Origin: Camellia lanceoleosa | Lineage: Eukaryota; Streptophyta; Magnoliopsida; Ericales; Theaceae | Direction of reading: 5' to 3' | Length of the DNA stretch: 64,000 nt | Assembly: GCA_025200525.1 (NCBI GenBank) | Contig: CM045761.1 | Coordinates: 60,854,009-60,918,008, forward strand | Shown here: positions 5,972-31,744 of the stretch, in pieces | How positions within the stretch are numbered: the first letter of the stretch is position 1 | How the letters are laid out: each line of letters opens with the position of its first letter | The notes under the pieces: model-generated | What the model was told of the DNA's origin: nothing | What the model saw: the letters and a program-made list of their open reading frames with translations, nothing else | Database searches by the model: none | Made by a program: the position numbers and the translations under genes

Positions 5972-5984
5972 GCAAGACAAAGGG

Positions 5985-7139: not shown

Positions 7140-8754
7140 TGTAACAACGCCCGCGGGGGACCTCGCTACAGTTCGGACTCGATTTTGTTGCGGTTCTCAA
7201 TCTTGAACCAAAGAGCCCAAATCCGGCAAATCGTTTTGAAGAAAAACAGATTTTTTGAAAGAAGTGCCAAACATGGACTCGCTTTGCGGATAATGTAGTC
7301 GCCACCTAAATATTTTAAAATGGGAAATTTAGGAAACCCCGACTCGGTGCCAAAAGGCCACGTCCGTCCGCTATCACCAAAGTTGGCTCGAACTTGGGTA
7401 CGATTAGGGAAGGTCACATCGTGAGCACTCTCGCCCGGCCAAAGACCGCCTCTACTAACCATGATATCTGCTTTTGAAAACATTGTGAGTTCTTATTCGG
7501 TTATTAGCCTAGGTTACTATGTGATGCTCAAAGAAACAAGTATAGATGGGCTGTTCGAATTGGAACAAAACATTTCATGTTTGTTTGTTTGAAAATGGTG
7601 TGATGGTGCTACCCGCAGGTAGGCTAAAATGCGGATTTGCCACCCTCGGGTGGGCTTAGAAAACATGATTTTGCCACTATCTAGTGGGCTTAAAACAACA
7701 GTCGATGAATTGTCCCAATTCAAATAACTCAACCTCCACCCACAGTATTCAAGGCGCTTATATCACATAAGCACATAGCCTCATGGTAAGCATGCTATCA
7801 TGGCAACACTCACACGCATGCAAGGATGCTAAAGCTTAACACTTACCTCGTACTCCAAGCCAAAACACAAAACTGATTACATATCATACATGATCCTAAA
7901 ATATACCGAATGCCTAATACAACACATGCAAAATGCAACTATAGCAGCTCGGCTATTCTAAATATGGCATATGAGATGCAATACTATCAAGTATTCAACT
8001 TGGAATTGAAATACAAATGCAGCTTTTATGATGCGCGAGCCCAGTGCATGCAAAACAGATGAATGATGCAAACATGCTATCATCTTGTATGCTAATTGAA
8101 ATATGCCCTATATCTAACCATCCAGCGGGTAAATAAAGGGAGAAAGAAATGGGGTTGGAAGCCATACATCACACTCACCCACCCTTATTACAACATTGCC
8201 CTCGCGCAGAGGGTCCGAATAAATAATAATACAGACCCGAATAAAAGAATATACAGTCCGAAATATACAGATTTCTAATTAATTGACAAATTAAACTAAG
8301 AAAGCAATAGAATCGCATGCAAGCTGGACTCGCTTTTATTTGAATGATGTATCTTTGGAAATCCACCGATGCCCCAATGCCTCTGTTTCACAATGTTTCT
8401 TGAAATGCGCCAAGCTTTGAAAAGTTGTTGATCCTCGATTTTCTTGTGACAGAGAGCGTGGAAAAAGGGCATAGCAATGTATTTCACAAATATATGCATG
8501 CCTCGATCCTCGTGCCACCAATCACGATACCGATGCATGATGGCCGAGGAGCCGAATTGCACAACTCAATATAGGGATGAATGCTACAACAAAACTTAAC
8601 TCCATCATGGGTAATCCGGTGTGTCGGTAACTGGGGGATTGAGACACACTCCGTCACTCGGGGTACAGAATGTAGCTTGTTTCGCGTCCGAAATGCATGA
8701 TATGCATGAAATGCAACTAATATACAACCTAGCATGCTCAATGCTATGAAAATG

Positions 8755-9595
8755 AGATGAAAATGAGACGCCTCGGCGTGCACGGGCACGCAAATCGAGG
8801 CGATGATGAAATGAAAATCGGATAAAACCAAAGTGCCTCGAAACGCAGCGTACCCGTGCACGCAAACCGAGGCGATGATAAAGAATGAAAATCGGATAAA
8901 AGCGGTGCCTCGAAACGCGTGCCAGCGCAAATCGAGGCGATGATGAAAGATGAAAATCGGATAAAACCGGTGCCTCAAACGCGTGCCTGGTACACGCAAA
9001 TCGAGGCGATGATGAAAGAATAAAATCGGATAAAACCAAGTGCCTCGGCAGCGTGCCGCGATGATGAATGAAAATCGGATAAAACCGCGCCCAAGTGCCG
9101 CGAAAATCGAGGCGATGATGAAAGAATGAAAATCGGATAAAACCGGTGCCTCAAACGCTGCCTGGTAGCGCAAATCGAGGCGATGATGAAAGAATAAAAT
9201 CGGATAAAACCGGTGCATCAAACGCGTGCCTGGTAGCGCAAATCGAGGCGATGATGAAAGAATGAAAATCGGATAAAACCGAAGTGCCTCGGCAGCGTGC
9301 CGCGCCGTCGGCGATGATGAAATAGGAAAATCGGATAAAACCGAAGTGCCTCGAAACGCGTGCCCACAGGCGCGCAAATCGAGGCGATGATGAAAGAATG
9401 AAAATCGGATAAAACCGAAGTGCCTCGAAACGCGTGCCCACAGGCGCGCAAATCGAGGCGATGATGAAAGAATGAAAATCGGATAAAACCGAAGTGCCTC
9501 AAAACGCGTGCCTTAGCGCAAATCGAGGCGATGATGAAAGAATGAAAATCGGATAAAGCAGAAGTGCACGCAAACCGAGGCGATGCATTAAGGCA
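8755..9595. repeat. ~70 bp minisatellite in LTR, 12 copies
   Basis: The unit contains GAAAATCGGATAAAACCG, then a CG-rich variable part (GCCTCGAAACGCGTGCC-like), then CAAATCGAGGCGATGATG. The A-rich half is highly constant and the CG-rich half varies in length. The equivalent array in the other LTR (29,640-30,355) has about 10 copies. Long minus-strand open frames here are translated repeat, not genes. Confidence 0.93.
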
Positions 9596-9929
9596 TGAAA
9601 TGACATGGGAAATGATATGCAAGCATGGAAAAGGAATTTCAGCACTCTCAAATGATGTAAAACAGCCCCGAAATGATACGAAATGACAACCGAAGCATGC
9701 AATCATCCCGAAAATATGAAATTAAGCCCCGAAATGGCCTATAGCCATGCTATACATGCAAAATATGATTATGGAAGCAAGAACAGTAGCAAGGCAGTCC
9801 CAAATATGGCATTTTTTCAGTAACAAACATGTCCAAAATGCTAGCATAGGTATGGCAACATTATCATGCAAGATTAGTGGCCCAAAAGAGGATTTCAAGG
9901 CAGATGGCATATAGAAAACTCAAATGAAC

Positions 9930-10485
9930 AAACTTTCTTCTACAATATTGAAGAGGGCATAAAAATAAGCACATCTTCAGAAGATGATAGCCCCAAAGTC
10001 AGAATAAAAACATGCTAACAATTCCATGCAAAATGGAGCTCCAAAAAGGCTATAACAAGAGACATGCAAAGCATACACCAAATGACAAAACTTTCTTAAT
10101 GAGACATGTAGAGGGGGTCAAAATAAGACCAAAGTCAGTAGGGGTCGAAGTCCCAAAACAAATAGAAATAGGTCAAAAATTGCATACAAAATGTGGCACA
10201 TTTGATGAAATTTGAAGGAGGTGGTATATACAATGGCCAAATGGGGTTGAGCCCTTCTACAATGTTGTAGAGGGGCTCAAAATGAGCACAAAACCAGTAG
10301 GGGTCGGACCCCTAAAAACAAACACAAATAGGTCAATTTTAGCATGCAAAAATGTGACAAATTTGATGAATATTGAAGGAACTAGTATATATAAGCACCA
10401 AATGAAGTTGAGCCCTTCTACAATGTTGTAGAGGGGCTCAATATGAGCACAAAACCAGTAGGGGTCGGAGCCCCAATTCTCAACC
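9930..10485. repeat. ~155 bp degenerate tandem repeat with strong hairpins
   Basis: Four related units share CTTCTACAA, GTAGAGGGG, TCAAAAT, AGCA and AGTAGGGGTCGGA. Two units contain a 28-nt hairpin (10,250-10,277 and 10,411-10,438) with 13-bp arms, AGCCCTTCTACAA against TTGTAGAGGGGCT, one G-U pair and a TG loop. The same lies in the other LTR at 30,700-31,235. Confidence 0.85.
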
Positions 10486-10539
10486 AATTGGAGTAGAGAA
10501 ATGAATCAAGAAAAAGCCCTAAAAGTTGGTTTTGAAGAC

Positions 10540-10545
10540 TTACCC
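10540..10545 (-). promoter_or_regulatory. Leader splice donor in 3' LTR
   Basis: The minus strand reads CTTCAAGG/GTAAGTC with GT at 10,543-10,542, a near-consensus plant donor 233 bp below the TATA box. Confidence 0.65.
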
Positions 10546-10775
10546 TTGAAGACTTGTCTTTCTTTGCTTCTTGGCTTGGATTTGTAGCCTCTTGACCTCT
10601 GAAGAACACTTCCTTGCTGCTGGAATCGAAGTTGGAATGGTGAGGCTAGGTGTTGGTGAAGAAATCAAGCAAGACTTGAAGCTTTTTTGAAGGTTTTGGC
10701 TATGGAGATTAGGGTTTTTGCTTAAGTGTTCTTGAAGACAATTTTTGTAACCTTGAGGAAGGAGCTGATGGTCCC

Positions 10776-10783
10776 TTTAAATA
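10776..10783 (-). promoter_or_regulatory. TATA box (TATTTAAA) of 3' LTR
   Basis: The minus strand reads GCCTATTTAAAGGGACC. The same sequence is at 31,536-31,543 in the 5' LTR. It lies about 140 bp below the palindrome cluster. Confidence 0.7.
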
Positions 10784-10894
10784 GGCAAAAAAGGTGTAAA
10801 GAGGAGGAGAAGCATCCAAGCTTTCCTCCCAAAATATCCCTTGATGGGGTGATATTTTGACAAAATATCCTGACAATTGGAACAGAAAGCAAGA

Positions 10895-10975
10895 ATCGCC
10901 GGCCAGTAGTTTTCGGGAGGTGGCCGGCCACCACCCCACTGGTCGGCCACCACTCACCATGGCCGGCCACCACCA
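10895..10975. promoter_or_regulatory. GGTGGCCGGCCACC palindrome cluster, 3' LTR
   Basis: A perfect 14-bp palindrome GGTGGCCGGCCACC lies at 10,919-10,932, with GCCGGCC at about 10,898, GGTCGGCCACC at 10,941 and ATGGCCGGCCACC at 10,959. All are upstream of this LTR's TATA box. Confidence 0.85.
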
Positions 10976-10984
10976 AAAAAATGA

Positions 10985-11295
10985 ACAAAAGATTTTCCGG
11001 CCGACCACCATAGAAAGGTGTCCTCCCAAGTGTGTAGAATAAGGCCCCAAGGTCGAAATCGCAACTCAAGCAGAGTCACAACATAGAGCTTGAAGAAGAG
11101 GCCCAAAATGAACTGCACAATTTCTCGCCGACCACCAACATTTTGTGTCCTCCCAGATGTGTAGAACAAGGTTCCAAGGTTGAAATTTGGCAACACTGAA
11201 GCAGGAGCCACAACATAGTGCTTGAAGGAGAGGCCCAAAATGAAACTTCCAATTTTCTGGCCGACCATGGCTTTTAGGGTCCTCCCATGTTCCCT
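10985..11295. repeat. ~128 bp U3 subrepeat, 2.5 copies
   Basis: Units share GGCCGACCA, GTGTCCTCCCA, GTGTAGAA, CAAGGTTGAAAT, CACAACATAG and GAGGCCCAAAATGAA. Repeated U3 blocks like this often act as LTR enhancers; that role is inferred. Confidence 0.8.
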
Positions 11296-11339
11296 CATCA
11301 CAAATATGTAACTTTGGTTGGAAGAAAATACCCCCAAGG

Positions 11340-11880
11340 TGTTCAACATTGGCCCGGAAGTGAGAAAAACGGGCTCCGGAGGAGCGAAACTGGTTATCTG
11401 GGATAATTGCTGGCCTCCCACCCCCCAGTGATCTTCCTGGTGTTGAAACAGAGGTACCTGCCAAATTTGAACAAAAACTAATGAGAAATGAACGCTCGGG
11501 GCCAAAACCGAGCAATTCGGGATCCCGAAAATGGGCAGTCATGGGAAGTGGTGTTGGCAATGGAAGTGGTATCTCACACCCCAAGGTCCCTCGAATGACA
11601 AAACAGAGGTTCCGCCAAAAATCGAGAAAACCGATGCAAAATGAATGCTCGGGACCAAAACCGCGATTTGGGGTCCCAAAATGGGCCGCAGCACCTAAGT
11701 GGTGTTCGGCCAAGTGGGCATCAGAGGCCCCAGTGTTCCTCAGAACTATAAAACAGAGGTGCAAGCCAAAAACCGGAGAACTCGGAGATGGTTGGGCGGT
11801 CCCGAGCCGAGGCACACGGCCTAACGGTCCCGAAAACCGGGAACCGGGCTCCGAAATGGGCAAAATGGCCTACGGCCACA
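11340..11880. repeat. ~135 bp U3 subrepeat, about 3-4 copies
   Basis: Units share CAAAACAGAGGT, GCCAAAA, GAAATGAACGCTCGG/GAATGCTCGGGACC, AAAACCG, ATGGGC and AAGTGG. Copies differ by many short indels. Open frames across them are repeat translations. Confidence 0.7.
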
Positions 11881-12111
11881 AAAAGTAGCTCACGGCCACG
11901 GAGATAGTCTCAGACCACTCCTTCCTCGGAAAGAAAACAGAGAAAACCGAGTCCGTTCGCAAACCGAGACAAGGCAGAGAAGAGAATTGAAGTCCGGAGG
12001 CGGTATGCGCCACGACTCGAGACTTCGAACGAAAGCACAAGATGCAACATCACCGAAGCGCCAATCGGTGACGCCGAAGTCTTAAGGTCGGTCAAAAATG
12101 GGGTGTCTACA

Positions 12112-12127: not shown

Positions 12128-13020
12128 AGAACTCGGAAGTCAAGAAGTGACGTGAGTGAATGTCAAAGCCCAGAGACGACCCATTTTTGACAAGGCCGAA
12201 GACTTAGACAAACATACAAGATAAACAGAAATGCGTGCTCGCAGGCAGGGGGGCGAGAATGCGAATGATAGGCACGGAGCCAGGTGATTATGCAAGTGCA
12301 ACAAGCTGTAATGAAGCAGGTATTGACAAATAGATGCAACAGTTTTAAGCAAGAATGCAAAGCAAGAACTACGTTTCATGCAGTTAGGAATGCGGAGAAT
12401 CATCCAATTCTCGTCGCGTCTCACACGGAGAAGATACGATACTCAAGGATTCGGGTCGCACCAAATTTCAAATGAACCGTACATACAATATCGTGCCTAC
12501 AAAAGAGAGAAATGCAACAAGAACAATATGCTAACAACATATATTCAATGCGATTCCTATGATTCGAAGAGTTTGACACACACAGTATCGGTGAAAGGAT
12601 GCATCACAATGCGAGAAAAGATAACGCGCGACAATGCATGCTCGAGCATAGAAGTATGGTACGTCAAGAAAACACGTATGACAATGCAAAACATTGATGG
12701 GAATGCAGATTATGAGCCAAATGATGACAAATGAGCACAAATCAGGATGCCGGTTTGTTGCGCAACAACAAGCTGAAAAACGCGCATTCGGCGACGGCAA
12801 CTCGATCGCGGCCTCTGATTTACATTCCGGAGAGGTCACAACATGTTTAAAAAAGGATACACTCCGATTTTGATGAATAATGAGGAGACACATGTCAATA
12901 ATTGCAATTAAAGTTTCAGCGGAGCAATTCGCGCCAGAAAGTGTACTTTTCTTCAACTTTTTCGGGTCCCGGGAGCTCCGATTTTCCTCAAAATTTGCAG
13001 AGAGGTAGGGGGGGGAAGAT
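12128..13020. other. Element 1 noncoding spacer
   Basis: Between the polypurine tract and the upstream region of the first opposite-strand gene. Rich in ATGCAA-type words, with no domain, RNA gene or clear repeat recognised. Confidence 0.6.
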
Positions 13021-13149
13021 GGTCGGCCAGCTCTCCTCCCTAGGAGAGGCCATCGGCCAGTAAAAAGGGGTGGCCGGCCACCAAAGTTAGGTGGCCGGCC
13101 ACACTGCCCAAAGTAGGGCAAATGGTCATTTTCATGATTTCTATATATA
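13020..13149 (+). promoter_or_regulatory. Promoter of the plant-mobile-domain gene
   Basis: On the + strand a TATA box, CTATATATAC (13,141-13,150), is preceded by GGTGGCCGGCCACC (13,069-13,082), a second copy GTGGCCGGCCACAC (13,091-13,104) and weaker TCGGCCAG copies at 13,022 and 13,053. The same module lies upstream of the LTR TATA boxes on the other strand. Transcription should begin about 30 bp downstream. Confidence 0.7.
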
Positions 13150-13383
13150 CACTTGCCCATTGCCTCCAAATCACACCCCAAGTGTGGAATTCTCCTCTTG
13201 CTCTCTAAGCCATTTTCTCCTTCAGATTCAAGATTTTATACGCCCCTACTCCCCACGAAGTTGTTTTTGTAAATCTTCCGAGTTTAAGCACTTTGAAGCG
13301 ACTAAATTTCGACTTTGGGGCTTCTCTTCTCATTTTCTCCACTTGTGGTAATTTTGTCTCATCATTTAGGAAATTTTCCCGGG

Positions 13384-13437
13384 AGTTGACTTTTGTTGAC
13401 TTTTCATTTCCCGAGAGTTGACTTTTGTTGACTTTTT
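13384..13437 (+). promoter_or_regulatory. Four W-box (TTGAC) motifs
   Basis: TTGACTTTTGTTGACTTTT occurs twice, about 30 bp apart, giving four TTGAC cores (WRKY-type sites) in the presumed 5' untranslated region. Confidence 0.6.
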
Positions 13438-13490
13438 TCCAAGTTTGGCCTGCTTTTGCTCATTTTTGCTCCTCTTGCAGATTTCTCGAT

Positions 13491-16400
13491 ATGGCGGGTC
13501 ATTTCTCATGTAGAGGTTTTCCAGCCGGAGATGATTTTGATCTCATGACACCGCCTCGAGGGTTCGCCTTTTATTCCCGGATCGATATGCCCCAGACATA
13601 AAGCCCGCGAGCCACTTTTCATTATTTCACCGATTTCAACGATCGAGCACCGGGATCTTCTTCACGAGAACCGGCAAAGACCTCTCCTACGATGTAGAGG
13701 TATTTTACTTATTCTCTCAGATTTCCCGTGCATTTCATACTCCTGCCATGCTTAGACACACAGATTTACTTACGACATGATACTTGCATCCTGAGCATGT
13801 GACTTAAACACTTGAATTTCATGAACACCTGGCATATTGAATAATTGTGAACGCACAGTGCACATTAGTTAGAAATTGAACACACATTCCAAACATTGAT
13901 TCACCAAGACACAACTCAAGTTGAAAATGAGCACACAAAGACATATCGACTAAGAGTAGAACACACATCCCAAAACTTGAAGCGAACACACTTTGAAAGT
14001 AGAACACAGCCCCAAACTTGAAGCTTAACACACGTAATCGATTGAAAGTAGAACACATACCCAAACTTGAAGCGAACACACAACCCATCGATTGAAAGTA
14101 GAACACACAGCCCCAAACTTGAAGCGAACATTACAATCGATTAGAAGTAGAACACACAATCCCAAACTTGAAGCGAACACACACTTAATCGATTGAAAGT
14201 AGAACACACAGCCCCAAACTTGAAGCGAACACACAAATTTAATCGATTGAAAGTAGAACACATACCCCAAACTTGAAGCGAACACACACCCATCGATTGA
14301 AAGTAGAACACATACCCCAAACTTGAAGCTTAACACACAATTTAATCGATTAGAAGTAGAACACACAGCCCCAAACTTGAAGCGAACACACACCATTGAT
14401 TGAAAGTAGAACACATTCCCAAACTTGAAGCGAACACACGTACCATCGATTGAAAGTAGAACACATACCCCAAACTTGAAGCTTAACACACGTTTAATCG
14501 ATTGAAAGTAGAACACACAGCCCCAAACTTGAAGCTTAACACACACATTCCATCGATTGAAAGTAGAACACACATTCCAAACTTGAAGCGAACACACAAT
14601 CGATTAAAAGTAGAACACAGCCCCAAACTTGAAGTGAACACACACCCATTTTCACTCCATTTGCACGCAATTTCATTTTCACTTCATTTGCACACAGCTC
14701 ATTTCACTTCATTTGCACACAAATTTCTTCATTTCATTTGTCGACCTATGCATTTATTCTCAATGCAAAGCGCCGACAAAGGCGAGGGTATGGCTCCACC
14801 GCCGAGGGAGTGGTATTTTGAGCTCCTAAGCCGTCCGGATTGGTCGACTTTGCAGGATTTGGACCATTCTCAGAGGGTTATCTCATTGCCTCATCAAGAG
14901 GACTTTATTTGTCGCTTTATGAGAGATGGTGGGACACCACCAATTCTTTCCATTTTTCTCGCCATCGGGATATGACCATGACCTCCGATTCTTGCTATGA
15001 TCACCGCCTAGACCTAGGCGGTGCTCCCATTCCTCACGACGAGGACATGGGTCAAGGAGGTCAGCTCGATGCACCTATTGGGGCACACCATCAGAGACAG
15101 AGGTACTGGAAGAGTTCGGTATACTTGGTTCTCTTCCCATTTTCGGCGGCCACAGATGGAGCCCGAGACTCCTGAGGAGGCGGAGCAGTATGCCCGCGGT
15201 TTCCTTATGTACCTCCTTGGCACCACCTTATTTGCTGATAGGGGGAACATGGTAGGATTACATCTCCTGAGTGCTCTGGTAGACCTCTCACTGTGTCGGC
15301 CAAGAGGATCGGCTACTGCCCTGCTACCTCAGACTGTTACATGAGCGCAGTCTCTCGCACACGAGGGGACTTACTCATGCCATCGAGAGCCCGGGAGGTA
15401 CATTCTGCCCTCTTGATTTACATTTCTTCCTCATTACTTGTTCATCGCACACACTACAAGACTTTGCATTCTCAGATTCTCGCCTTTTAGCACTTTGTAC
15501 TCACATTCCGTGATCGCTTTCTCATATGGGTATATGCATATTTCCCCACATTAGCTCCAGAGATGGAGGTGGCAGGACCTCCCATGACCCCATTTTCATT
15601 GATGTTTGAGAATGAGCACTTATCAAGGCCCCGAGAGACTCTCTTCCATCTACGACAGTACTTTGACACTGTGTTCGGCTACAGAGGTATTTCAGAACTC
15701 TCAGTTCTTTTCATTTTCATCTTTGGTCTACTTTGCACCTTTTGATTTCTGTTTGATTTACATATCCGGCTATCCACAGATCACCGGCGCCTTTGGGCAA
15801 GAGTTTGGCGATGACCTCGAGAACCAAGATCCGTGAGGATCGACCAGCCTCAAAGATAGGTTCCTCGCCGAGGGACCAACAGGCTTGGTTTTGGGAACGC
15901 CAGCCGTGGGGTGTGATTCCCAGACCTCCGCCAGGCTCTCCAGACACCATGCGGATCGCCGATAGATTATCCCCGAGGAGGTTAGTAGTGCTATGCAGGC
16001 GTTGATGCTTTATTACATCTTCTTGATGGAAACTACGCCACCTATCGCCAAGATATACCGATGCCCCTCTGACGGGAGTACGGGCTCCACCACGGAGGTC
16101 CACTGGCACACCATCTTCGAGTCGCGCCCATGCTACAGATATCCCTTCTTCTAGCAGGGCCGGTATGTCTAGAGGTAGAGGGAGTTCGATTCCCCCCGTC
16201 CCTCCGACTCTCGATCACCCCGATGGCAGAGATGCCGATCGAGTTGACGGGTTGGCAGTATGGGACCACTTCTCCGATTCCGATCCCTATGGAGCCTCCA
16301 ATGCCTGGCCACAGATATGTCAGTGATCCTGACTCACCACCGGTATGTTCTACCACTCTCATTTGTCACACAGATATTTTGGCAGTTGCTTATTTATTGA

Positions 16401-17045
16401 TGAGTTGAGCTTGTGTCTGCAGCCACCTCGGGATTACATAGACCAGATGCTCGGGGTAGTGGCATCACTTCGAGGATGGTCCTCAGAGAGAGGCACAGAT
16501 GTCCATCATGGGCTTCTGTACCCTTCATCTTTCTTGCATTTATCATATTTCATAATGCTCGCTTTGAACATTCCATTGCACCGATAGGTCAGGTAGAACA
16601 CATCCGCACACACCCCACTCACATACCAGACTTGCACTGCTTCATGTTTGAACTGACGATTGCACTTTGCATTTTCAGATGCCTCCAAGATATGCTCCAC
16701 CATGAGGTGGGCCTCCTGCCTTTTTCAGAGAGGTCGAGGCGCTAGACCCGCCGAGGCATGTGGACTCAAGGAGCCGGGCCATCCAGCCTTACCGAGGAGC
16801 TCGAGGAGTGGTCGCCCCGCAGACGCAGGGCACCCATTGTCGAGGATGACGAGGAGGAGGTCGCAGATCATGTGTCAGAGGCATCCCCTGGAGAGGGAGG
16901 CCCTGGTCTTGGTTCCGGGAGCGGAGACGAGCCTGAGGAGGATCCGGAGGATGACAGCTCCGATCCAGATGGTGATGAAGATGCAGAGATTATCCCGCAG
17001 GAGGGGATGAGAGGGCCTCCCTATTCCCGTTTCCGAGGACACTGA
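13491..17045 (+). pseudogene. Plant mobile domain (PMD) gene carried by element 1, multi-exon, degraded
   Basis: The start is ATG at 13,491, following a CTTGCAG and after the TATA box. Exon 1 runs to about 13,698 (donor AGAG/GTATTT). After a ~1 kb intron filled with tandem repeats, coding resumes near 14,760. Recognisable PMD segments are PREWYFELLSRPDWSTL and RWWDTTNSFHFS (14,800-14,960), GGAPIPHDEDMG (15,020-15,055), TPEEAEQYARGFLMYLLGTT with LFADRGN (15,165-15,250) and APEMEVAGPPMTPFS (15,550-15,600). An acidic tail (EEDPEDDSSDPDGDEDAE) ends at a stop near 17,045. Frameshifts occur near 14,930 and 15,830 and a stop lies in exon 1. PMD proteins occur as host genes (MAIN/MAIL type) and in transposons. 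Here the gene lies antisense to gag-pol, between pol and the 3' LTR. Its function in the element is unknown. Confidence 0.8.
13965..14645. repeat. ~50-55 bp tandem repeat inside PMD-gene intron, about 14 copies
   Basis: The unit contains ATCGATTGAAAGTAGAACAC, then CCCAAACTTGAAGC, then AACACAC. It lies between the donor at about 13,700 and the resumption of coding at about 14,760. Minus-strand open frames of up to 190 codons are repeat translations. Confidence 0.92.
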
Positions 17046-17640
17046 TGTTATTTCCTGCTTTATTCTACTTTTTTAGCTAGTAGTTTGTAGCACTTTGCAC
17101 ATTGTTAGGCAGTTTTAATTTTCTGTAAAACTGGTACCTTTATTTGTGTTGTAAAACATGATGAATGAAACAAATTTTTGAAAAGATGTTGTATTTGAAA
17201 TTTTAGCATCGCATCGCATCATTTTGCACAAAATGGAATTGAATGGAACGCGTTTCATGTATTTATCGGGTCGTAGTGAACCGACGCAACAAATCAAAAC
17301 AAACCGACTCGCTAAGAAATAATGTAATCTTAGCAGGTTTACAACTCGATAAGCAAAGTACAACAAGGTTAACGACTCAATAAACAAGACTTAATAAAAT
17401 TGTGTAACCAAAGGGTAACAACTCAGAACACAAAATGCGACAGCTCGACAAACTTACAACTCGATAATCAAAACAACAACTCGATAAGCAAAAACACGAC
17501 AAAATGTATTTCAGACAGACGATCTGGATGATGGGACGTACCCAAAACTGATAGAAATGGAGGCCTTCGACATTCCCGATGCACGAAAGTGCCTCAAACT
17601 TCCTTCCGGCGGGCAAAACAGGACCAACACGAGGCCGAAA
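17046..17640. other. Spacer between the two opposite-strand genes
   Basis: The first part is the likely 3' untranslated region of the PMD gene (T-rich, with TTTTCTGTAAAAC and a TGATGAATGAAAC stretch). The rest, with repeated AACAACTCGATAA words at 17,280-17,490, holds no recognised gene. Confidence 0.5.
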
Positions 17641-17664
17641 GCATTTTGTACCCGGAAAACAAAG

Positions 17665-17768
17665 AGTGGCCGGCCTACTAGGATAGGTGGCCGGCCGGCC
17701 ACCCTTCCCTTGACCACCAAAATGTTGACAAGTGTCCCGTGAATAGTGTTTTTGGCCTCCTATAAAAG
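17665..17768 (+). promoter_or_regulatory. Promoter of the second opposite-strand gene
   Basis: A TATA box TATAAAAG (17,761-17,768) is preceded by GGTGGCCGGCCGGCCACC (17,686-17,703) and GTGGCCGGCC (about 17,666). This is the same palindrome module as at the PMD gene and the LTRs. ATG follows 45 bp after the TATA box. Confidence 0.7.
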
Positions 17769-17812
17769 CCCCAATCTTGGAACTCATTCATTTCATCACA
17801 TTCTCTCTCAAA

Positions 17813-19075
17813 ATGGAAGCATTTCTCACCGAAAATCTCACATCTTGGATTTCTTCTTTAGATGGCTCGGAGAAGTTGAATTTTCGGGGTTTCGGCTTGA
17901 ATGCACTATTCACGCTAAGCCGGACTCCACTGCATCTTCCTTTCCTCCATGCCGCGGCAAGGTTTTGGAACCCGGTGACGACGCCTTTAGCTTTGGCGGC
18001 AAGAGGTATGTCCTACTTTTGAAGATTTTCAAGCCTTAATGGAGTCTCGACCGCCAAGAGATCTTGCCTCGCTTTTTGGCCATGCCCAAGCTTTAGGGCT
18101 TAATGTGCGGTCTCGACGCCAGATAATGCTCGATCTCGATTGGTAATGGATGTTGACATCCCGAGTCCGATGATCGATTCTCCGATGCCGAGAACCGCAA
18201 CGACCACCATTGGCAGAGGTTCGACAAAGATGCCCTTTGCTTGTGCATGCTATCTCATTTTCGCTCGCTCGCCCGAGGAGCCAACATCCGCTTGATCAAG
18301 TCGCCAAGGCTTGAGGAAGGAAAGAGTCAGATCGCTATGACTTTGGCCGAGACATTGATGGGTCTAGATGCCTTCTACCGTCAGAGACAACCAGTTTTGC
18401 GGGAGTCCACTATCGCTATGTAATGTTTCCCACCCAAGCTCACATGTATATTTGCTCACATCACTCGCCCTGCTCAATTTTTCCTCACAAAACCCTATCT
18501 TACTTTTCTCTCTCCTCGACATCTCTATTCTTTAATCTCTCATTTTTCATCCCTCCCCGTATATGGTTGATGGATAAATTGCAAGTTGTGGACTCTTGTC
18601 TCGCTTATTCAAATTTCATGGCTACTTCTTTTCGTCAACGCCTAGTTGACGCCCTTGATGAGGGATGGTGGTATGATGGATGTGCAACTTGTCGGCAGAT
18701 CGCATCGCTGGCGTTGTCCTTGGCTTAACCTTCCGGCGATGAGTTATAGCATGTTTCAGATACCGATTCGTTGGTCGGCTTGACTCATCGTGTATTTTAC
18801 TTCCCATTCCGCATTCTCAGCCGCTTGGCCATAATCAGACTTGCCCTCCGGAGGGGATTGAGTATCCAGCTACATTTCCAATTCGAGGCGCGCACCTTGC
18901 CCGACATACTACGGCCTGGAGGACCAGAGAGCTCCTATCCCCCGCTTCTACTTTTAGTTGCACTTTATCTGACGAGTGCTGGGATTGGCTCAACGAAGAA
19001 GCACAGGTTGGGCCTAGGCTGGCATCAGAGGCTTCAACTAGCTCTGGAAGGGGACGCAGGAACACCTGACTGGAC
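17813..19075 (+). pseudogene. Second opposite-strand gene in element 1 (FW.P / F.FG / CPTFE.F family)
   Basis: ATG at 17,813 opens MEAFLTENLTSWISSLDGSE, then GFGLNALFTLSRTPLHLPF and AARFWNP. A frameshift near 17,970 separates this from AFSFGG, CPTFEDFQALMESRPPRDLA and LFGHAQALGL (18,009-18,110). Later parts are MTLAETLMGLDAFYRQRQP (about 18,335-18,395), a likely intron, IWLMDKLQVVDS (about 18,565), GLTHRVFYFPFRI (about 18,775) and CWDWLNEEAQVGPRLASE (about 18,980). I recall this family from extra reading frames of Tat elements and from plant proteins labelled DUF7745 or aminotransferase-like; the label is from memory. Several frameshifts break it. An AATAAA-like signal follows at about 19,128. 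Biochemical role unknown. Confidence 0.65.
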
Positions 19076-19364
19076 TATGCCCCAGATTTATTGCTTTATT
19101 AGTACTTTCAAGTTTTCGTTATGAGTGTAATAAAAAGCAACTTCAATTGTATGCGAGAGCAAAAGAACTTTGTTTTGAAATCAATGAAATTGAAGATTGT
19201 GGTACTGAAAATTCTCCACTTTTGGTCCAAAAATGGTCTTAGTTGTGAAAAGATTACTTTGAGCAAAGTCAACTTTTATTAAAACTTTTCAAAACTATTT
19301 TCGATATGGATCAGAACTGGACACGCCTGAGATCTGTCACTGAGATGTACAACTCCGAATCCTA

Positions 19365-19475: not shown

Positions 19476-19797
19476 TAGTTTGAATAGCACTGTACCGGAG
19501 ATCGCAATAAATGCTGATGAATAGAGATGACTGAGATGATCATAATGGACAAAGTTGATCGGGGAAAAGATTATGATCAACTTCGTGATGAAGTCGCCAC
19601 GATCCCAAAGATGGGAATCAAGTCTTACGAAGTTCAGCTCAGTTCACCGAGTATTTTTGCTCTCCTTTGCGCCTAACTTTTGCCAAGGCCGCCTTTATGG
19701 TTTTCAACCTTGCGTAGCTCAGCTTTTATAATTTCAAATTTTCTATGCTCGAAGTTTTGCCTAGGTCGCCTTTTCGGGTTTTCGCCCAGCGAGCCTC
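19475..19797 (-). other. Element 1 region downstream of integrase
   Basis: Noncoding on the minus strand after the integrase stop. It supplies the reference that identifies the dispersed pieces of element 2 (GAAGTCGCCACG near 19,590, TTTTGCCAAGG near 19,690). Confidence 0.7.
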
Positions 19798-20900
19798 TCA
19801 AGGGTAGTATTTCTTCAACTTGTCCATATTGATCGGTTGGGAAAACTCCAAGCCATCTAGATCCATCGTAACCACAGCCACCACCGACTGCATTGACTTG
19901 ATAATGTAAGGACCATTCAATTGGGTCTCGAACTTGCCCCTTGGGTCGTGGATGGGAGCTCGTTGTCCTTGAGTACCAAATCTCCTTCTTTCAAGTTCCT
20001 CGACTTAACTTTCTTGTTAAAAGCCGGCGATTCTCGCTGATAACCTTGGACGTGGTACGTTGCTTTCAACCTTCTTTCATCAAAGAGCATGAGTTCTTCA
20101 AACTGCTTTTGTTGCTAATCCGCTTCGCCATCTCCGCATTCGCCAATACTCGCAATGACGGACCTCAATCTCAATTGGTAGAACGGCATCCATCCCATAG
20201 ACTAATGAGTACGGAGTCGCCCAAGAGAAGTTCTCGATCAAGTCCTCAGAGTCTCCACAGAGCAAACGGCAGCTTATCCGCCACCCTCGTAGGTTTCCAC
20301 CATCTTCTGTAGTATGCGCTTGATATTCTTGTTGGCGGCCTCAACTGCTCCATTGGTTTGCGGCCGGTAAGTAGATGACTTATGAAAAGCCACATTGTAC
20401 TTCTCCAACAAGTCAATCACCTCCTTCTTGAACTGGGAACCATTGTCCCAAACTATTTCATTTGGGACTCAGAGCGACAGATGATGTTGTTTCGATGAAT
20501 TTTGCAACGTGAAGCTTTCAACACTGCATAAGATTGGGCCTCAACCCACTTTGTGAAATAATCTATCGCTACAAGGATGAACTCATGCCCATTCGACCCT
20601 TTCGGCGTGACGGCCCCGATCACATCAATTCCCCAGACTGAAAATGGCCATGGCGAAGTCATGTTGTACAGCTTCGACGGCGGAATGTTCATGCGATTTG
20701 CATGAATCTGACATTTGTGGCATCGCCGAACAAAACCGATACAATCCTCCTCCATGGTGGACCAATAATAACCTTGTCTAAGGATCTTCTGCGCCAACAT
20801 CACCCCATTCATATGTGCACCACATTCACCCCCGTGGATGGCTTCCATCAGACGCTTGGACTCTTCAAAGATCAACACACGCTTTATGCATTCCAGATGA
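19798..20900 (-). pseudogene. Integrase of element 1 (broken)
   Basis: The integrase inserts retrotransposon cDNA into the genome. The N-terminal HHCC zinc finger is complete (EAIHGGECGAHMNG, then CHKCQ, 20,690-20,870). The core starts VWGIDVIGAV with the first catalytic Asp, followed by AIDYFTKWVEAQ. A frameshift near 20,500 interrupts the core. A C-terminal KLKKYYP-stop ends at 19,798. A GGPLRGL-type connection cannot be followed continuously. Compared with element 2 it keeps the zinc finger and first Asp that element 2 has lost, but is broken by indels. Confidence 0.85.
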
Positions 20901-20929
20901 CCCTTCTATACAATTTACCCGCAGATGAT

Positions 20930-21520
20930 GAACCGACGGCCAACCTTCTTATTGCCCTCTTGTCTTTGGCATTTACCTCGCGGTATGTTTCGCTTCCAAA
21001 AAGTTCCAGTATGTCGTAATACCAGGGTGTTCGTCCCGAACTTCATCTATGGTCAGAATCGACTCATAGGCAAAAGCGATTTCGTCAATAATGACCGGAC
21101 GATTCGACTCCACGTGATGTCTATCATGGATGATAGAGTTGCTAAAGCGCTCATGAACTTGTTGTTCTCTTAGTAGATGAGTAAAACTTAACTTTTCAAA
21201 CCGAGGAATCAAGAAATCCAAGGTTTGGTGATACATCATCATATTTTCCTCTTTTACTTTCCATTTCCTTTAGCTTGAGACACAACAAGATTCGAATCCC
21301 CAATGACGCCCAAATTGCCTTGCCCCTAATTCCGTGGTCGCCCATACCAAAGAATGCACGCTTCAGATTCTCGCTTCATTATTTGAGACTTTGAAACGGA
21401 GTTTGAAGGCTAGAGGATACGGAATTGTCGGTGCTATCAAGCAACACTCCTATCCCATACCCATGTTGATTTGACGCCCGCCAAAGTACATTGTCCAACT
21501 TTCCTCGCCGATATGCGTAA
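20930..21520 (-). pseudogene. Archaeal-like RNase H of element 1 (broken)
   Basis: The second RNase H domain defines Tat elements. LDFLIPRFEKLSFTHLLREQ (21,160-21,220) aligns with the intact copy at 34,300. Upstream residues are in other frames. A spacer to integrase (DEVRDEHPGITTYWNFLEAK) follows. It would remove RNA from RNA-DNA hybrids or act structurally. Confidence 0.75.
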
Positions 21521-21689
21521 TTGCTTCATCCGGGAATAGGTACTCAACGCTTCATCCCTCAACCGATGGTCGGCAAGGAACTCGCCATCGCTTCTTCCTT
21601 TTTACCGACTTGCGCGTCACATATGTAAGATCAAATTCGAGAGCAACAAAGAACCAACGAGCTAGCCTACCCAGAAGCGCCGGTTTCTA

Positions 21690-21995
21690 AAAGATATTTG
21701 ATGGGATCGAGACGCTAAACCAAAGATCACCGAAAGTGAGCTAACAGGTAGTGCCGCAGCTTCCTGGTAGCCCATACCAGAGCTAGACAAGCCTTCTCCA
21801 GCGGCGTATACCGGGTCTCATATTCTAGCATCTTCTTGCTCAAATAGTAGATGGCTCTTTCCACCCTATCTTCTGATTCTTGCGCAAGCATGCAGCCCAT
21901 CGTGGTCTCCGTCACTGACAGATACAAAATCAACGGTTTCCCTGGTTCCGCTGGTGATAAAACGGGTGGGTTCTCAGAGATATTCTTTAACTGCT
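21690..21995 (-). pseudogene. Ty3-type RNase H of element 1
   Basis: Reads ILYLSVTETTMGCMLAQE, AIYYLSKKMLEYETRYTP and CLALVWATRKLRHYLLAH, the region joining RT to RNase H in Ty3/gypsy polyproteins. Uninterrupted over about 68 codons, then frameshifted near 21,725. Confidence 0.85.
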
Positions 21996-22059
21996 CAAAC
22001 GCAATTTTGACACCGCCGTCCCATTGGAACTTCTTGCCTTTCTTCGTAAGACCAAAAGT

Positions 22060-22970
22060 GGTTCACAAGTCAAGGTTAGTTTTGAAATAAACCGCCTTAT
22101 GAATTGCACTTTACCCGTAAAGCCTCGCACCTCTTTTTCACCTTGGTGGTGGCATTTCTAAGATGGCCTTGATTTTGGAAGGGTCGACCTCGATGCCTTT
22201 GTGTAATCGAAACCCCAAAGATTTTTCCCGCCAGAACACCAAACGACATTTCGAGGGTTTAGCCAAGAACCTAATTCCTCGATCCTTTGGAAAAACTTGT
22301 GCAAGGCTGTAGTGGCCCTCTCTTTCTTTGGACTTGACAATCATGTCGCCCACGCACACCTCAACCTCTTTGTGGATCATATCATGTAGTATTGTGGTCG
22401 CGTCTGCTGATAAGTAGCCCCAGCCGTTCTTCAACCCAAACGGCATGACCCGGTAGCGAGATGTTCTACGGGTAGTGAATGCAGCTTTTCTCGCCTTCCG
22501 CGCCATCACTATCTCGATTGTACCGAGAAGCCATCCATGAATGAGAGCAATGCATGCCCCGCAGTGAAGTCCACTAGCTCATCAATGTGTGGCAAGGAAA
22601 GTCGCCCTTCTGACTAGCTCGCTCAAATCCTCAAGTCTACACACACCGGATCCTCGCCATCTTTCTTCTAAGACCGAACAATGTTGGCCAACCAAGTCGG
22701 ATATTCAGATACTAGCAGAAGCTCGCCAATTTGCTTGGTGACCTCTTCCTTAATCTTGAGAGCCCAATCCGCGATCCTTCGAAGCTTCGCTTGATGTGTC
22801 GGGCCTGGGTCAAGGGGGATCCGATGTCGCATAATCTCAGATCGATTCCTGCATGTCTTCGTAGGGACCACGCGAAAACATCTTTGAAATCTTTTAATAA
22901 AGCGACTAAGCGCCGCGTTCGAAGACAACGTGGACCCGATCCGACCACCATGGTCCTCCTCAAGCACTAA
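22060..22970 (-). pseudogene. Reverse transcriptase of element 1, catalytic site altered
   Basis: Segments recognised in order are LVALLKDFKDVFAWS (about 22,890), SEYPTWLANIV (about 22,690), YRVMPFGLKN (about 22,440), TTILHDMIHKEVEV followed by CVGDMIVKSK (about 22,350), and IEVDPSKIKAILEMPPPR (about 22,160). The catalytic motif is CVGD where element 2 has YVDD, so one catalytic Asp is replaced by Gly. Several frameshifts are present. Confidence 0.88.
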
Positions 22971-24130
22971 TGTTCACAGAATGATTTCATCCGTTAATGG
23001 CTTAACAAATCTCTCTTGCTCTTGCTCAATTAGACGCTAGAAACCGAGGAACTTCGCCCTCGCTGCTTTGATCAAAATTTTGAAAGTCCTAATTAATGCA
23101 ATAAATTAGGGGCACGTAAAAGTACTCGAAACCACATTCACCTCATTCTCATTAAGTTCATCCAAATCGCCCGATTCATCTACATAACAGACTCAAATGA
23201 AAAGGAAAAAGACGACCGACAGACTCGCATCCGGGTTAACATCCTCAGAGTACTGCAGACTCACCGAGCTGAATCGATTCACTCACAAGACTCGGTGGAA
23301 TCAGATTCCGCCACTACCCGAATCGCTGGATAAGAATCCTCCTCGCATCGCCAAATGAGAGAGGGTGCGATGGATGCATCCAAGATAGTCAGGTTGGCTC
23401 GCAACTGCTTTCATCCCCAATCATGGAGACCATGAAGTTATTCCCAAGCAATCTTGGTCGATCGGAGGATCGAGAGGAGACATGCCAGCTACCCCATTTC
23501 CAATTCCGTGCCCTCAAATCCTCGCCTTTATTCTCGCCAAATTTCGCTTGTTGGGTCTGCTCGCTTCAGGGCAACGCTATCCCTGATAGTTGCAGTGTCA
23601 AGAAGATTTCAAACCTGCACGCGCTCCTCTCCGCTAAACCATGGCTCGGGAAGCCGCAATGGAAAATCTTCCTTCCTGACGAAGCGTCTGCTCAGGTACC
23701 CCAGATGGGCCTATGCATTAGATCAAAAGGCTTCCCACTGCTTCGCCGGGCCCCGCCGCCATTTCCTTTCTCGCCAATTTCTTTGGTAGGCAGATAACCT
23801 AATCCAAAGGTATGTGGATTATGTGGCACTTCGCCAACGCTATGACTCCTTTCCTCGCCGCTTTCTTCCCAATCCCATCCCGGATATGTTGTAGCTTGTT
23901 CATGAGGTAGACAGATTGAGCACTAACGCATATACCCTCATTCACGCCCATAATGTTTTGCACCACCCTGCCTCACCAATGTAAATCCCGATATGAACAT
24001 ATCTTCCATGCCGTGTTCGATCTCCAGATCGGCGAGATACTCCTGAGGGGGATGGATTGATGAATTCCCAAAAACAATGGCTACTCCCTTTCCATAGGGG
24101 TATTTCACCATTTTATGTAGAGTAGATGAG
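22971..24130 (-). pseudogene. Protease-RT linker of element 1 (degenerate)
   Basis: Corresponds to the acidic linker of element 2 (36,102-36,926), but frameshifts leave only short matching pieces, for example around the ACACTCCATTTAC-like and Ser/Asp-rich stretch 23,160-23,420. Confidence 0.55.
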
Positions 24131-24560
24131 ACGGCCTTCACCGATGCAACCTGTGGTCGCCTAAAAGCATGTTAAAAGATGCAGGACCTCCAAGACATGA
24201 AAATCTACCTCTTGTTGTCCAGCCCAATCTTGGTTTGGATTTTACCGTCCCCTGTGACATCCCCGCTTGTATTGTCATAGGCTCGATCACTTGAGTAGTC
24301 GGTGAAGTCCGCAGTTTTAACCCAATTGCATACGCCGCCCGCCGGGCAGACATTAATAGCGGATCCCAGATCAACCAAGACCACCGGAATCCATTTATCC
24401 CTGCATTCTACAGAGATGTAGAGAGGTCTGTTATGATCCACGCCCTCAGGCGGCAATTCCTTGTCCGTAAAGGTCAATGCCGGGGAACCTCCTCCCGGGA
24501 AGACCAAACCAACTAGTTGTTCTGGCGTAGTTTCAATGGAAAGCTTGGCTTTGTCCATAG
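24130..24560 (-). pseudogene. Aspartic protease region of element 1
   Basis: QLVGLVFPGGGSPALTFTDK and KELPPEG lead into RDKWIPVVLVDLGSAINVCP (about 24,340-24,400), a retropepsin active site (D-x-G-S form in Tat). The flap side is frameshifted after NVCP. It would process Gag-Pol. Confidence 0.82.
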
Positions 24561-25559
24561 CAGAAAGGACACAAATGTCTCAGGTACCTCGAAGCCATAA
24601 GCAGCCCCGATGGAGATGTTCGCTTGTATTTTCTTTAGCCGCTCAAGATGCCTCCTCTTCAACTTGCTTCTCTCGCTTCTCCGCTTTTTATCTTTCCCCG
24701 ATGCCTAGAGTTGAACAAGGTGTGGGGGCTTGAAATACCGCCCACTTCTAGTCATATGGTCCACCTCGAGGTACCAAAGTGCCCTGTTGGCCACCCGCCC
24801 AATCTTCGCCTCAGGTGGGCAAGATATAAGTCGCCATCCTCCCACCACATTCCATTAGCATCTAACAGTGCACCGTCTGGTTCTCGTTTGTTTGTGCTCT
24901 CAGATTTTCCTCCCTCATGCTCACAAAGATGTTCGGCTTCGTGCCCACAAGACTTCAATTTCCTCATGGTTCTTCGCTGCCTCTCGTAAACCCATCTCTT
25001 TTCTTGTTCCTCCAAATCGCTTGTTCTTTTCAAAATGTCTTGGTCCCGAAGCGAATTCTTCAGACCGCGCCTCCGCGATTCACTCATTCCTCGCCCTTCC
25101 GCCACAAATGGTACAATGTCGCCGATCATCCAACCACCCGACGACTTCACGACTCGTGAATCGAACCGCTTAATTGATGCATCACCCGATTCCGATCGTT
25201 GAAAAATTGAAGGTTGGCGGCTCTTCCGCAAGCCAAATCATCCCCACGATTCAAGTTTATCCCCTGATCATACACAACTCACCTTCTCCGCAACCCCATA
25301 CTCAACTTAGGTTGGCTCATTGACAAGATATATCCACTGGATCATAAGCTCGCCACTAAATTCTCGATTGCTCCACCCCAGACTCAACAGCTTTTGTTTC
25401 CCTAAGCCCCGCCTGCTCCATTCTCGTGGTCACCACCTTTGGCTCAGTTGGGTTGTGGAGGTGTCCACCATGCACAAGTCCGCTATCAGGAGGATCACCT
25501 CCGCTTGGGTAGGTGGGAGGGGTAATGTAGATACTAGGGTCGTAAGATACGCCCCCGCT

Positions 25560-27116
25560 TGGATAAGATTGATTCTTTTGGGTGGATCTTGGTTATGTGT
25601 CGAGTGGGTTGGTTGTAACATTGGGTCGCCGAGGTAGAATGATGTTTTTGTCAATGAGATCTTGAACCTCATGACGCAGCCTGTAACACCGGGTCGGTGT
25701 CGTGACCATGCCGCCGGTGGTATTTGCAATATTTGGTCAAGGGGGAGTGGATTTGGTGGGGCCTCTTCCAAGGGTTTCAGATGCCCTTTTCTCGACTAGA
25801 ACCCCGAGGACTTTGGATAAAGGCATATGTAGTGGAGAAGGTTCGCTGACCCCGGGTTGGTACCTTGAAGCTTGGTTATCGCCTCCCAGAGGCATCGGAA
25901 AAGGTGTGGCCGCGGCCTTGGTTGGGAAGGGGATTGGTGGTGACCATTCCGACCTCTGTTCTTGTATTGGCAGAGCCACTCGGCCTCGCATTGGTATTCC
26001 GATTAAATGTTCTTCTGGTCGATCCCGATCTTGGTCAAACAGACCTTGCTTCATCGATCCTCTATTTGCATCCCCATATCATGTAGATCTGCGAAAGTGG
26101 GGAAAGGGACTACGATCATCTTCTTCATTAACGCCTACCGAGATTGCGCACAATCATCCGGATTCGATCTCTCGCTGGCCTTAAGGTCATCATCGATGCC
26201 TTCGCCTCCACCGTTACAAAGTCGAAAAGATTCTTTGGGCTCGCCTCGTTGTCTCGAGATCACGAGTGGTAATCTCGATCCGTGGTGTTATATGAATATT
26301 GTGCAACGAAGGCCTCGCCATCTCATCCCGCTTTATTTTCACCATCTTCCAAATTTGAATACCAAGTGGATGCCACACCGACAGGTTCGACCGAACAAAG
26401 AAAGCTTTTGCGGCAAGTTAGGCCCATTGGTCTTAAGACGCTCCGAAAATAGCGGAGGTGGACTATAGGGTCCCTGATCCATCAAAGCGATCGATCCGGG
26501 GCATCTTAAATCTGTCTCAAGAATGTCACGGCCACATCAAGATAGCCGCCTTCAATGTCCGGATGGCTTTCACCCCGTGATTTCTTGAAGAGTTTTTCCA
26601 ACTTGCTCAATTTCAGAGTCAGTGGTCTACCTCGAACTCAAATGGAGCGTCCGTAGTTAGGTGTAATGTTTTGGACAAGTGGTAGAAGCGGGGCGAGCTA
26701 CCGCTGGAAGACCCGTGTCCTCTTGGGTGTTTTGTGGGTTTGGCGTAGCATTTTGTGGATTTGGGAGGGTAGCTTGGGTATTCTCGCAGATTTGGAGGGG
26801 CATTCGCCAAGAGATATCTGCTCAGTAATGGGGCCCCGTGGTGGAGGAACTCTGCAGCCCCTAATGGAGGAGGGACTCGTGTGAAGCAGATGCAGCTCAT
26901 TGCTTGTAATCGGTGATCAACTCGCATCATGGGCCATGACAACCGCTCGTTGTTTGGAAAATTCCGCTGGCGGATAGCATCATCTTGCATTTGCTTCATG
27001 CTTTCACTCATCCGGGCGATCATCGCCTCCATTGTCAGGTTCTCGTTGTTCCATCTCAAAAATCGCAAGTGTGTCTCTATAGCGTAAATAGGAATCTCAA
27101 CCCGATCGTTCGACAC
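25560..27116 (-). pseudogene. gag of element 1 (broken)
   Basis: Gag is the capsid protein. An open stretch from 27,116 carries MEAMIARMSESMKQMQDDAI and TDAPFEFEVDH, collinear with element 2 gag. The capsid core and the C-terminal zinc-knuckle-like region (25,640-25,740, YC..FH then GHxTxxC in element 2) are only recognisable as nucleotide similarity because of frameshifts. The true start is unassigned. Confidence 0.75.
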
Positions 27117-28009
27117 TAAAGTAGATCGGCCGTATCAATAATCCGCTCGATGGATCAAGCGTTTCTCGCCTTCTTCTAATAACCGGTAGTGAATGGAACA
27201 CCGATGTCCGGCTAACTAGATCCTCGGATCGAGTAAGTCGGCGACCTCGTGTCCATTGCTTGGGGAGTATCGATCGCTCAAGCAATCGTATACAAACCGC
27301 CCTAAAAAAGATAATAAAGCAAAAGGAAATAAATGACCGTAAAAACGGCAAAGATAACAAATTAAATTTAAATACACACAACACACAATGAGCATACAAC
27401 ACACAGCTGGATAAGCTGAAATACATTGTCCTCAACCATCGATCACTATTCCTCAGACATCGTTTCAAAATCAATCTGTATCCGCAGACAACCGATTCTC
27501 AAATAATCGATCGATGCCCGCAGCGTAACGTACAACTCAAAATCGATGCCCGCAGTTCGATGCCCAAACTCATACCGATACATGCATTCCTCAGAGACAC
27601 ACTCTAGCAAGCACATAGCGTATAAGTGAGAGCCAAAACACCCCTATGTTGGGGTAGGGTTTCGCCCTATTTTGTCGTGAACTAGGGTTTCACTACGCAC
27701 GCAATGCGCTTCAAACAACCTATAAACGGGTAAGCAACCCGCCCTAGTTTGGATTGGTCACTATGGATCCGAATATGCACTAGGTCGAATGGTCAAGGGT
27801 GCCCAGAAACCGGGTTTGTGTTCTATATCGGCAGAGCTCAGAATCGATCAATTTTATGGACATGCCTTGACAAGACAAGCCTCCCAAGAAACCGCCAGAA
27901 TAGCAGATGGCAAACACGGTGTCCTAGGCGCACTAATGCAAATGCAATGCAAAGAAACACACAAGTGTAGTCAAAACCAGATATCATGAGTTCGAGTCAA
28001 GTTCTCTAA
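27117..28009 (-). other. Leader of element 1, with splice acceptor candidate
   Basis: Noncoding between primer site and gag. At about 27,304 the minus strand has a T-rich tract ending TTTTTTAG/GGCGG, a good acceptor. Paired with the LTR donor at 31,305 it gives a ~4.0 kb leader intron. Element 2 has a comparable tract at about 40,515. Confidence 0.55.
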
Positions 28010-28029
28010 ATCCCCAAGAGTCGCCAGAA
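28010..28029 (-). other. Primer binding site of element 1
   Basis: The minus strand after the LTR reads TTCTGGCGACTCTTGGGGAT. TGGCGACTC...TGGGGA is the form I associate with tRNA-Arg priming in Tat/Ogre elements (recalled). Confidence 0.65.
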
Positions 28030-31235: not shown

Positions 31236-31301
31236 CCAATTCTCAACCAATTGGAGTAGAGAAATGAATCAAGAAAAGCCCTAAAAGTTGGTTTTGAAGA
31301 C

Positions 31302-31307
31302 TTACCC
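31302..31307 (-). promoter_or_regulatory. Leader splice donor of element 1
   Basis: The minus strand reads CTTCAAGG/GTAAGTC with GT at 31,305-31,304, 231 bp after the TATA box. Confidence 0.65.
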
Positions 31308-31737: not shown

Positions 31738-31744
31738 AAAATGA

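Follow-up and report, generated by a model that had tools for sequence, protein, structure and literature searches.

The locus analysed here lies in a 64,000-nucleotide stretch of Camellia lanceoleosa contig CM045761.1 (the window) and comprises two antisense genes carried by a Tat/Ogre-like Ty3/gypsy retrotransposon, termed element 1. The closest described systems are Ogre, Retand and Grande elements. An extra open reading frame (ORF) with a plant mobile domain (PMD) was reported in 57% of Ogre elements (PMC6317226). Very large long terminal repeats (LTRs) combined with a PMD ORF, a feature that is frequent in Ogre (Tat) elements without strictly defining them, are also displayed by element 1. 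The extra ORFs of that survey are, however, uninterrupted frames of at least 250 codons, and the portion of the survey available to us contains no mention of multi-intron antisense genes, of a second, DUF7745 gene or of shared promoter arrays (PMC6317226). Every Retand cluster that was surveyed carries antisense coding regions between pol and the 3' LTR (PMC11963269), while gene23 of Grande is transcribed from its own promoter (PMC7264820) and encodes a nuclear protein (PMC11963269, PMC7264820). The genes of element 1 resemble these ORFs in position, in orientation and in the tandem arrays of the region (PMC11963269, PMC7264820). In contrast, TRP28 (PF04195), present in nearly all Retand clusters (PMC11963269), is absent from the 22 scanned pieces of the accessory region, and the LTRs are about 5 kb long, compared with 315-1,194 bp in Retand (PMC11963269). 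In addition, the word intron is absent from the main text of the Retand paper (PMC11963269), whereas the genes described here are intron-bearing. PMD proteins encoded by Gypsy retrotransposons across angiosperms, termed PMD-A, provide a further likeness (PMC5418596). The literature, as far as it was accessible to us, treats the role of such antisense ORFs of plant retrotransposons as unknown. Published precedents thus exist for antisense accessory ORFs that have a promoter of their own and for a PMD in Ogre, while a paired, multi-intron antisense module with arrays shared with the LTR promoter appears to be new within the literature searched.

VANDALs, which provide the other useful comparison, are DNA transposons. 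Their protein VANC binds arrayed motifs in non-coding parts of its own transposable element (TE), causing loss of DNA methylation (PMC5735166). Element 1 and VANDALs both combine a TE-encoded protein gene with short-unit arrays in non-coding parts of the same TE; in both, the units differ between related families and introns contain tandem repeats (PMC5735166). They differ in that binding has been shown for VANC, whereas for element 1 it is a proposal.

A two-gene antisense module

Element 1 is a ~25.7-kb element on the minus strand with two ~5-kb LTRs at its ends. Its integrase ends near 19.7 kb, and both accessory genes occupy the plus strand of the ~7.6-kb stretch between this point and the 3' LTR. 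The features are as follows, the 21 aligned sequences being 20 other copies plus the window.

7155..12111, minus strand: 3' LTR of element 1, about 5 kb (LTR-pair alignment, ends set by eye)
13491..17045, plus strand: gene 1, PMD protein (PF10536; Pfam, relatives and aligned copies)
13955..14644, no strand: tandem array in the first intron of gene 1, 13 units of about 50 bp (repeat analysis of the window)
17813..19069, plus strand: gene 2, protein of the DUF7745 family, with two exons at 17813-18419 and about 18561-19069 (relatives and aligned copies)
18420..18560, plus strand: gene 2 intron; all 21 aligned sequences have the GTAATG donor and 12 the CCCCAG acceptor, which the window copy lacks
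19129..19134, plus strand: AATAAA poly(A) signal downstream of gene 2 (read from the window)
19691..28043, minus strand: gag-pol internal part of element 1 (integrase zinc-binding domain and identity to element 2)
28044..32840, minus strand: 5' LTR of element 1, adjoining the integrase end of element 2 as well (LTR-pair alignment, ends set by eye)

Comparison of gene 2 DNA with its own genome revealed 10,209 first-look candidates, of which 40 were scored; 39 of these cover at least 1,232 of the 1,263 gene 2 bases at 88-100% identity, one being the window itself. Twenty of the 38 other copies were examined over 10 kb; they are the most similar to the window in gene 2 and thus constitute a sample biased to close kin. 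All 20 display the same order and orientation, comprising LTR, spacer, promoter 1, gene 1, intergenic part, promoter 2, gene 2 and integrase-side start, and the two-gene module is therefore a family feature rather than a one-off. The module is missing from element 2, the neighbour of element 1 in the window, unlike all 20 fetched copies. The original prediction of two intron-bearing genes on the opposite strand between integrase and 3' LTR is thus confirmed in genes, strand and place, with splice signals kept in the aligned copies; the outcome named as refuting it, absence of the region from all other copies, was not seen, since 20 of 20 carry the same pair in the same order. Predicted proteins that span the LTR or spacer of this element together with the PMD were identified in C. 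lanceoleosa (P0060) and C. sinensis (P0076, P0082 and, weakly, P0140), while P0042 of C. fascicularis spans gene 2 and its 3' flank. No adjacent locus-tag numbers for genes 1 and 2 were found by eye among the listed representatives of other Camellia annotations, which is uninformative as each cluster contributes one name.

Gene 1 comprises approximate exons 13491-13699, 14771-15397, 15525-15686, 15780-16342, 16423-16517 and 16679-17045, separated by five inferred introns. Unedited single pieces match PF10536 colinearly (E=1.1e-4 and 0.031; 22.0 and 13.9 bits, under the gathering score), and a read-through query with X at the frame joints matches at E=9.1e-13 (48.5 bits; gathering score 34.9), in agreement with the assignment of the first gene to the PMD in the original prediction. 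The read-through also matches Camellia PMD proteins with E down to 6e-117; the match to the best relative, P0059, extends from the gene start to the last residues, and relatives P0059, P0062 and P0077 score 105-110 bits against PF10536. The donors of introns 1 to 5 are kept in 21, 21, 21, 20 and 19 of the 21 aligned sequences, respectively, and the acceptors of the four tallied introns in 13, 21, 20 and 20, the intron 1 acceptor being too variable for tally. The window copy lacks the usual acceptor of intron 2. The intron 1 segment is matched in all 20 copies, with variable length.

Gene 2 had been placed at 17,813-19,075; the start stands, while the stop codon is located at 19,067-19,069. The DUF7745 profile proposed for this gene is matched by its relatives (P0001, P0006, P0008 and P0056; 37.6-44.2 bits against PF24924, gathering score 26) but by neither the pieces nor the read-through of the window copy, which gave no Pfam match. 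Gene 2 matches Camellia proteins carrying PF24924 at E=2e-92. Among gene models, P0004 reads through the intron, while P0002 and P0040 splice it out, and all 20 other copies have AATAAA within the 220 bases around and after the stop. The PMD is matched as well by DUF7745 relatives of gene 2, in a Rhododendron protein along its entire length (E=2.8e-7; 30.5 bits, short of the 34.9 cut-off), and because of these matches genes 1 and 2 are probably distant kin within the PMD superfamily. An accessory module of two different genes is thus retained as a pair in fixed order, but not as two unrelated genes. A profile comparison between the gene 1 and gene 2 protein sets gave no signal, and no literature on DUF7745 was found.

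In gene 1 exons 2-6, 68 of the 127 variants common to at least three copies occupy third positions (p=2e-6), as do 38 of 69 when CpG and CWG columns are removed (p=8e-5). The corresponding count for private variants is 54 of 187, and for a non-coding control 34 of 112 (arbitrary count). Variant sites are not fully independent, as the copies share ancestry. Judged by these variant positions, gene 1 shows selection on its protein.

Both genes are frame-broken in the window copy. A protein search with P0007 listed 112 matches to exon 1 of gene 2, of which 85 contain no internal stop by eye; these are best-scoring copies and thus biased to open frames. Across the 21 sequences, CAG+CTG density drops as deletion runs rise (Spearman -0.93 for gene 1 and -0.83 for gene 2), this being the strongest negative trinucleotide association in gene 1 and second to CCC/GGG in gene 2. 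Such base loss, which recurs at CHG sites in separate copies, resembles long-read error at methylated positions rather than mutation, and the frameshifts of the window copy are probably largely assembly errors. The LTR pair (7156-12118 and 28046-32847; about 4.8-5.0 kb) presents 88.6% identity, a divergence that is unsuited to dating because assembly errors inflate it.

The palindromic array of the LTR and accessory promoters

The promoter regions of the LTR, gene 1 and gene 2 contain the following elements.

10776..10784, minus strand: probable LTR TATA box, CTATTTAAA; the last array site lies 145 bp upstream of it
10900..10968, no strand: CGGCC array in LTR U3, ~1.15 kb from the LTR start, with exact GGCCGGCC at 10922 and 10961 and a relaxed unit at 10941
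13021..13100, no strand: promoter 1 array, with GGTCGGCC at 13021 and GGCCGGCC at 13072 and 13093, spacing 21 bp
13141..13149, plus strand: gene 1 TATA box, CTATATATA, found in all 21 aligned sequences, the window among them
17668..17700, no strand: promoter 2 array, with GGCCGGCC at 17668, 17689 and 17693
17760..17767, plus strand: gene 2 TATA box, CTATAAAA, found in all 21 aligned sequences and in each of 18 additional promoters
31662..31729, no strand: CGGCC array of the other LTR (unit scan of the window)

Exact GGCCGGCC occurs nine times in the window against 0.35 expected (maximum among 100 shuffles, 3), and all nine sites are located within the two LTRs, promoter 1 or promoter 2, with none in the window gag-pol. 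In the 20 copies, 54 sites belong to the LTR part, 33 to promoter 1, 52 to promoter 2 and two to other places. Thus, 139 of 141 sites fall in the three promoter regions and two in the 142,186 other bases of the 10-kb stretches, most of gag-pol being covered in the window copy only; as for the units recognised by VANC, the motif is arrayed in non-coding parts and rare elsewhere in the element. Of the 256 palindromic 8-mers, only GGCCGGCC marks LTR-U3, promoter 1 and promoter 2 (19, 18 and 19 of 20 copies, respectively), while the next best reaches one copy in its weakest place.

The spacing of the sites differs between the three regions. In promoter 2 of most copies two sites are 21 bp apart and a third lies 4 bp further, and in promoter 1 the 21-bp spacing is found in 10 of the 14 copies with at least two sites. 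Exact LTR sites are irregular (4-65 bp apart), with relaxed units 19-20 bp apart in the left LTR of the window. Runs of at least three CGGCC units at 18-23 bp were identified at four window places (three LTRs and promoter 1), and 49 of 50 shuffled windows contain none.

As originally predicted, each gene has its own TATA box and upstream palindromes. The accompanying proposal that the promoters copy the LTR architecture holds for the palindrome array and TATA box, but not for the whole sequence of promoter 2. Once the sites are masked, no resemblance of promoter 2 to promoter 1 or to the LTR promoter is left (shuffle fractions of 0.43 and 0.43 of 500), while promoter 1 keeps a weak similarity to the LTR promoter (shuffle fraction 0.01). 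This comparison rules out that promoter 2 is a whole duplicate of the LTR promoter, whereas for promoter 1 it leaves a weak possibility.

A hairpin-like motif, GGATATTTT...AAAATATC...GGGATATTTT, is located between the palindrome array and the TATA box of the LTR U3 (~10825-10870) and is visible by eye in most LTRs compared.

Diverged loci and neighbouring elements

A protein search with P0007 revealed 15 diverged gene 2 loci. Four of them (L053, L054, L057 and L061) carry GGCCGGCC and the C-terminus of gene 1 upstream of gene 2. A different unit, CGGTCGGC, occupies the same place of the gene 2 promoter in 11 of the 15, three of which hold GGCCGGCC as well, and its period is 20-21 bp in all seven loci where it is repeated. 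No gene 1 match was found within 1.5 kb upstream at L047-L052, L055, L056 and L058-L060, the queries being PMD relatives that a diverged gene 1 could escape. The pair may thus not be universal among gene 2-bearing elements, as far as these upstream regions indicate. Several of the same loci align upstream over a ~58-bp tandem array. In L048, the sole locus of this B-type subfamily with an LTR start available, the LTR starts ~530 bp upstream of gene 2.

The window also contains a third, diverged LTR at 2443-7091, in which a separate CGGCC array occupies 6290-6332. CGGTCGGC occurs only twice in the window, at 3853 and 3873, both within this LTR, and the stretch 3771-3881 can be aligned with gene 2 promoters of the B type (for L050, E=1.9e-11).

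The integrase zinc-binding domain of element 1 was located at 20453-20905 by domain scan, and its gag-pol presents 65-79% DNA identity to element 2, whose pol contains RVT_1, RVT_3 and rve. Element 2 pol, the only one for which domain order was scanned, displays on the minus strand the reverse transcriptase, one RNase-H-like domain (RVT_3), H2C2 and rve, and a separate classical RNase H was not identified in it. Tat elements carry an additional RNase H domain (aRH) between RNase H and integrase, which RVT_3 may represent here. In Ogre elements the primer-binding site is complementary to tRNA-Arg; here, a TGG-containing stretch was noted by eye ~18 nt beyond the LTR. Inspection by eye revealed no short flanks that match on the two sides of element 1, and an Rfam scan gave 0 matches. 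Element 2 (28044-46300) has an LTR in common with element 1, and since its integrase end adjoins the junction of polypurine tract and LTR, the accessory region is missing from it. Elements 1 and 2 look like a recombined three-LTR tandem. Further along, a direct repeat pair (57053-57614 and 62473-63030; 97.5% identity, 5.4 kb apart) probably represents the LTRs of a young, smaller element.

Proposed function and competing explanations

The reading that we favour, at about even confidence, is that the two genes form a conserved accessory module of a high-copy Tat/Ogre-like retrotransposon in which three transcription units would be switched together through the shared arrays. RNA polymerase II would make two spliced, host-style mRNAs from the antisense genes, and one or both protein products would act in the nucleus. 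A factor, most likely an element-encoded PMD-type protein, would recognise the arrays, so that transcription of genomic RNA and of the accessory genes would be switched together, probably by activation or anti-silencing. The introns would survive retrotransposition because they run antisense to the genomic RNA, an argument of the original prediction that is logically sound. A more specific form of this model, which we put forward tentatively, is self-recognition of the VANC kind: the antisense-encoded PMD-type protein or proteins would bind the arrays in the LTR and in their own promoters, the element would activate or un-silence itself, and unit and protein would change together across subfamilies (GGCCGGCC versus CGGTCGGC).

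Several observations speak against coordinated switching of this kind. AlphaFold2 models of both proteins have a mean predicted local distance difference test score of 41 and are too poor for suggesting a DNA-binding fold. Third-position constraint is weak in gene 1 exon 1 alone (8 of 18) and not significant for the shared variants of gene 2 (18 of 41, p=0.10); in gene 2 it is the private variants that lean to third positions (36 of 83, p=0.04), and the filtered variant sets give no clear signal. The window promoter 2 has no phased run of three units at 18-23 bp, and among 18 further gene 2 promoters exact GGCCGGCC is present in 12 and the TATA box in all 18. Conservation of the array columns does not exceed that of the remaining promoter (0.971 v 0.970; 0.905 v 0.904), so that retention of the array across related copies may be simple descent. 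Finally, the first ~970 bp of the L048 LTR contain neither GGCCGGCC nor CGGTCGGC, though the gene 2 promoter of this locus has CGGTCGGC; this argues against a universal link between LTR and gene promoters.

Among the alternatives, the one that survives best, although we consider it rather doubtful, retains a role for the module proteins. The PMD proteins would imitate or poison host silencing by MAIN and MAIL1, while an ordinary host factor would bind the arrays. In favour of it, MAIN and MAIL1 belong to a silencing pathway and are themselves PMD proteins, some PMD-A clades are encoded by Gypsy elements (PMC5418596) and gene 1 shows selection on its protein, but confinement of the sites to the three promoter regions of the element and the change of unit in a related subfamily are left unexplained. 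An unlikely explanation is that the arrays are a by-product of repeat slippage or template switching in GC-rich stretches and have no regulatory meaning, the accessory genes being served by basal TATA promoters only. The even conservation of array and surroundings, the variable length and spacing of the array between copies, the weak similarity of promoter 1 to the LTR promoter outside the sites and the unit-free LTR start of L048 are all in line with slippage. This origin contrasts, however, with the occurrence of the sites in three separate places upstream of TATA boxes, their near absence elsewhere and the persistence of an array at the same place in the diverged subfamily. It is more improbable still that the antisense transcripts matter as RNA, pairing with the genomic RNA or feeding 21-nt phased small interfering RNAs (phasiRNAs) that limit or tune the element. 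Antisense regulation has been proposed earlier for such ORFs (PMC7264820), and in tea 175 PHAS loci were reported at PMD genes, which are weakly expressed (PMC10673657). The tea study implies that PMD genes are transcribed and targeted in a related species, their location in this element not being stated in the part of it available to us. The splice signals and third-position constraint of gene 1 nevertheless point to a protein product, and host phasiRNAs may be a response rather than a function. A one-off insertion or a capture of host genes in the window copy, as the neighbouring element 2 without the region might suggest, is refuted by the 20 of 20 other copies that keep the pair, and we assign it practically no weight.

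If the assembly is systematically wrong at CHG-methylated sites, as the indels suggest, many of its TE "pseudogenes" may be unbroken. For the family itself, a short and testable DNA signal shared by the LTR and both accessory promoters would open the function of antisense ORFs to binding and reporter experiments.

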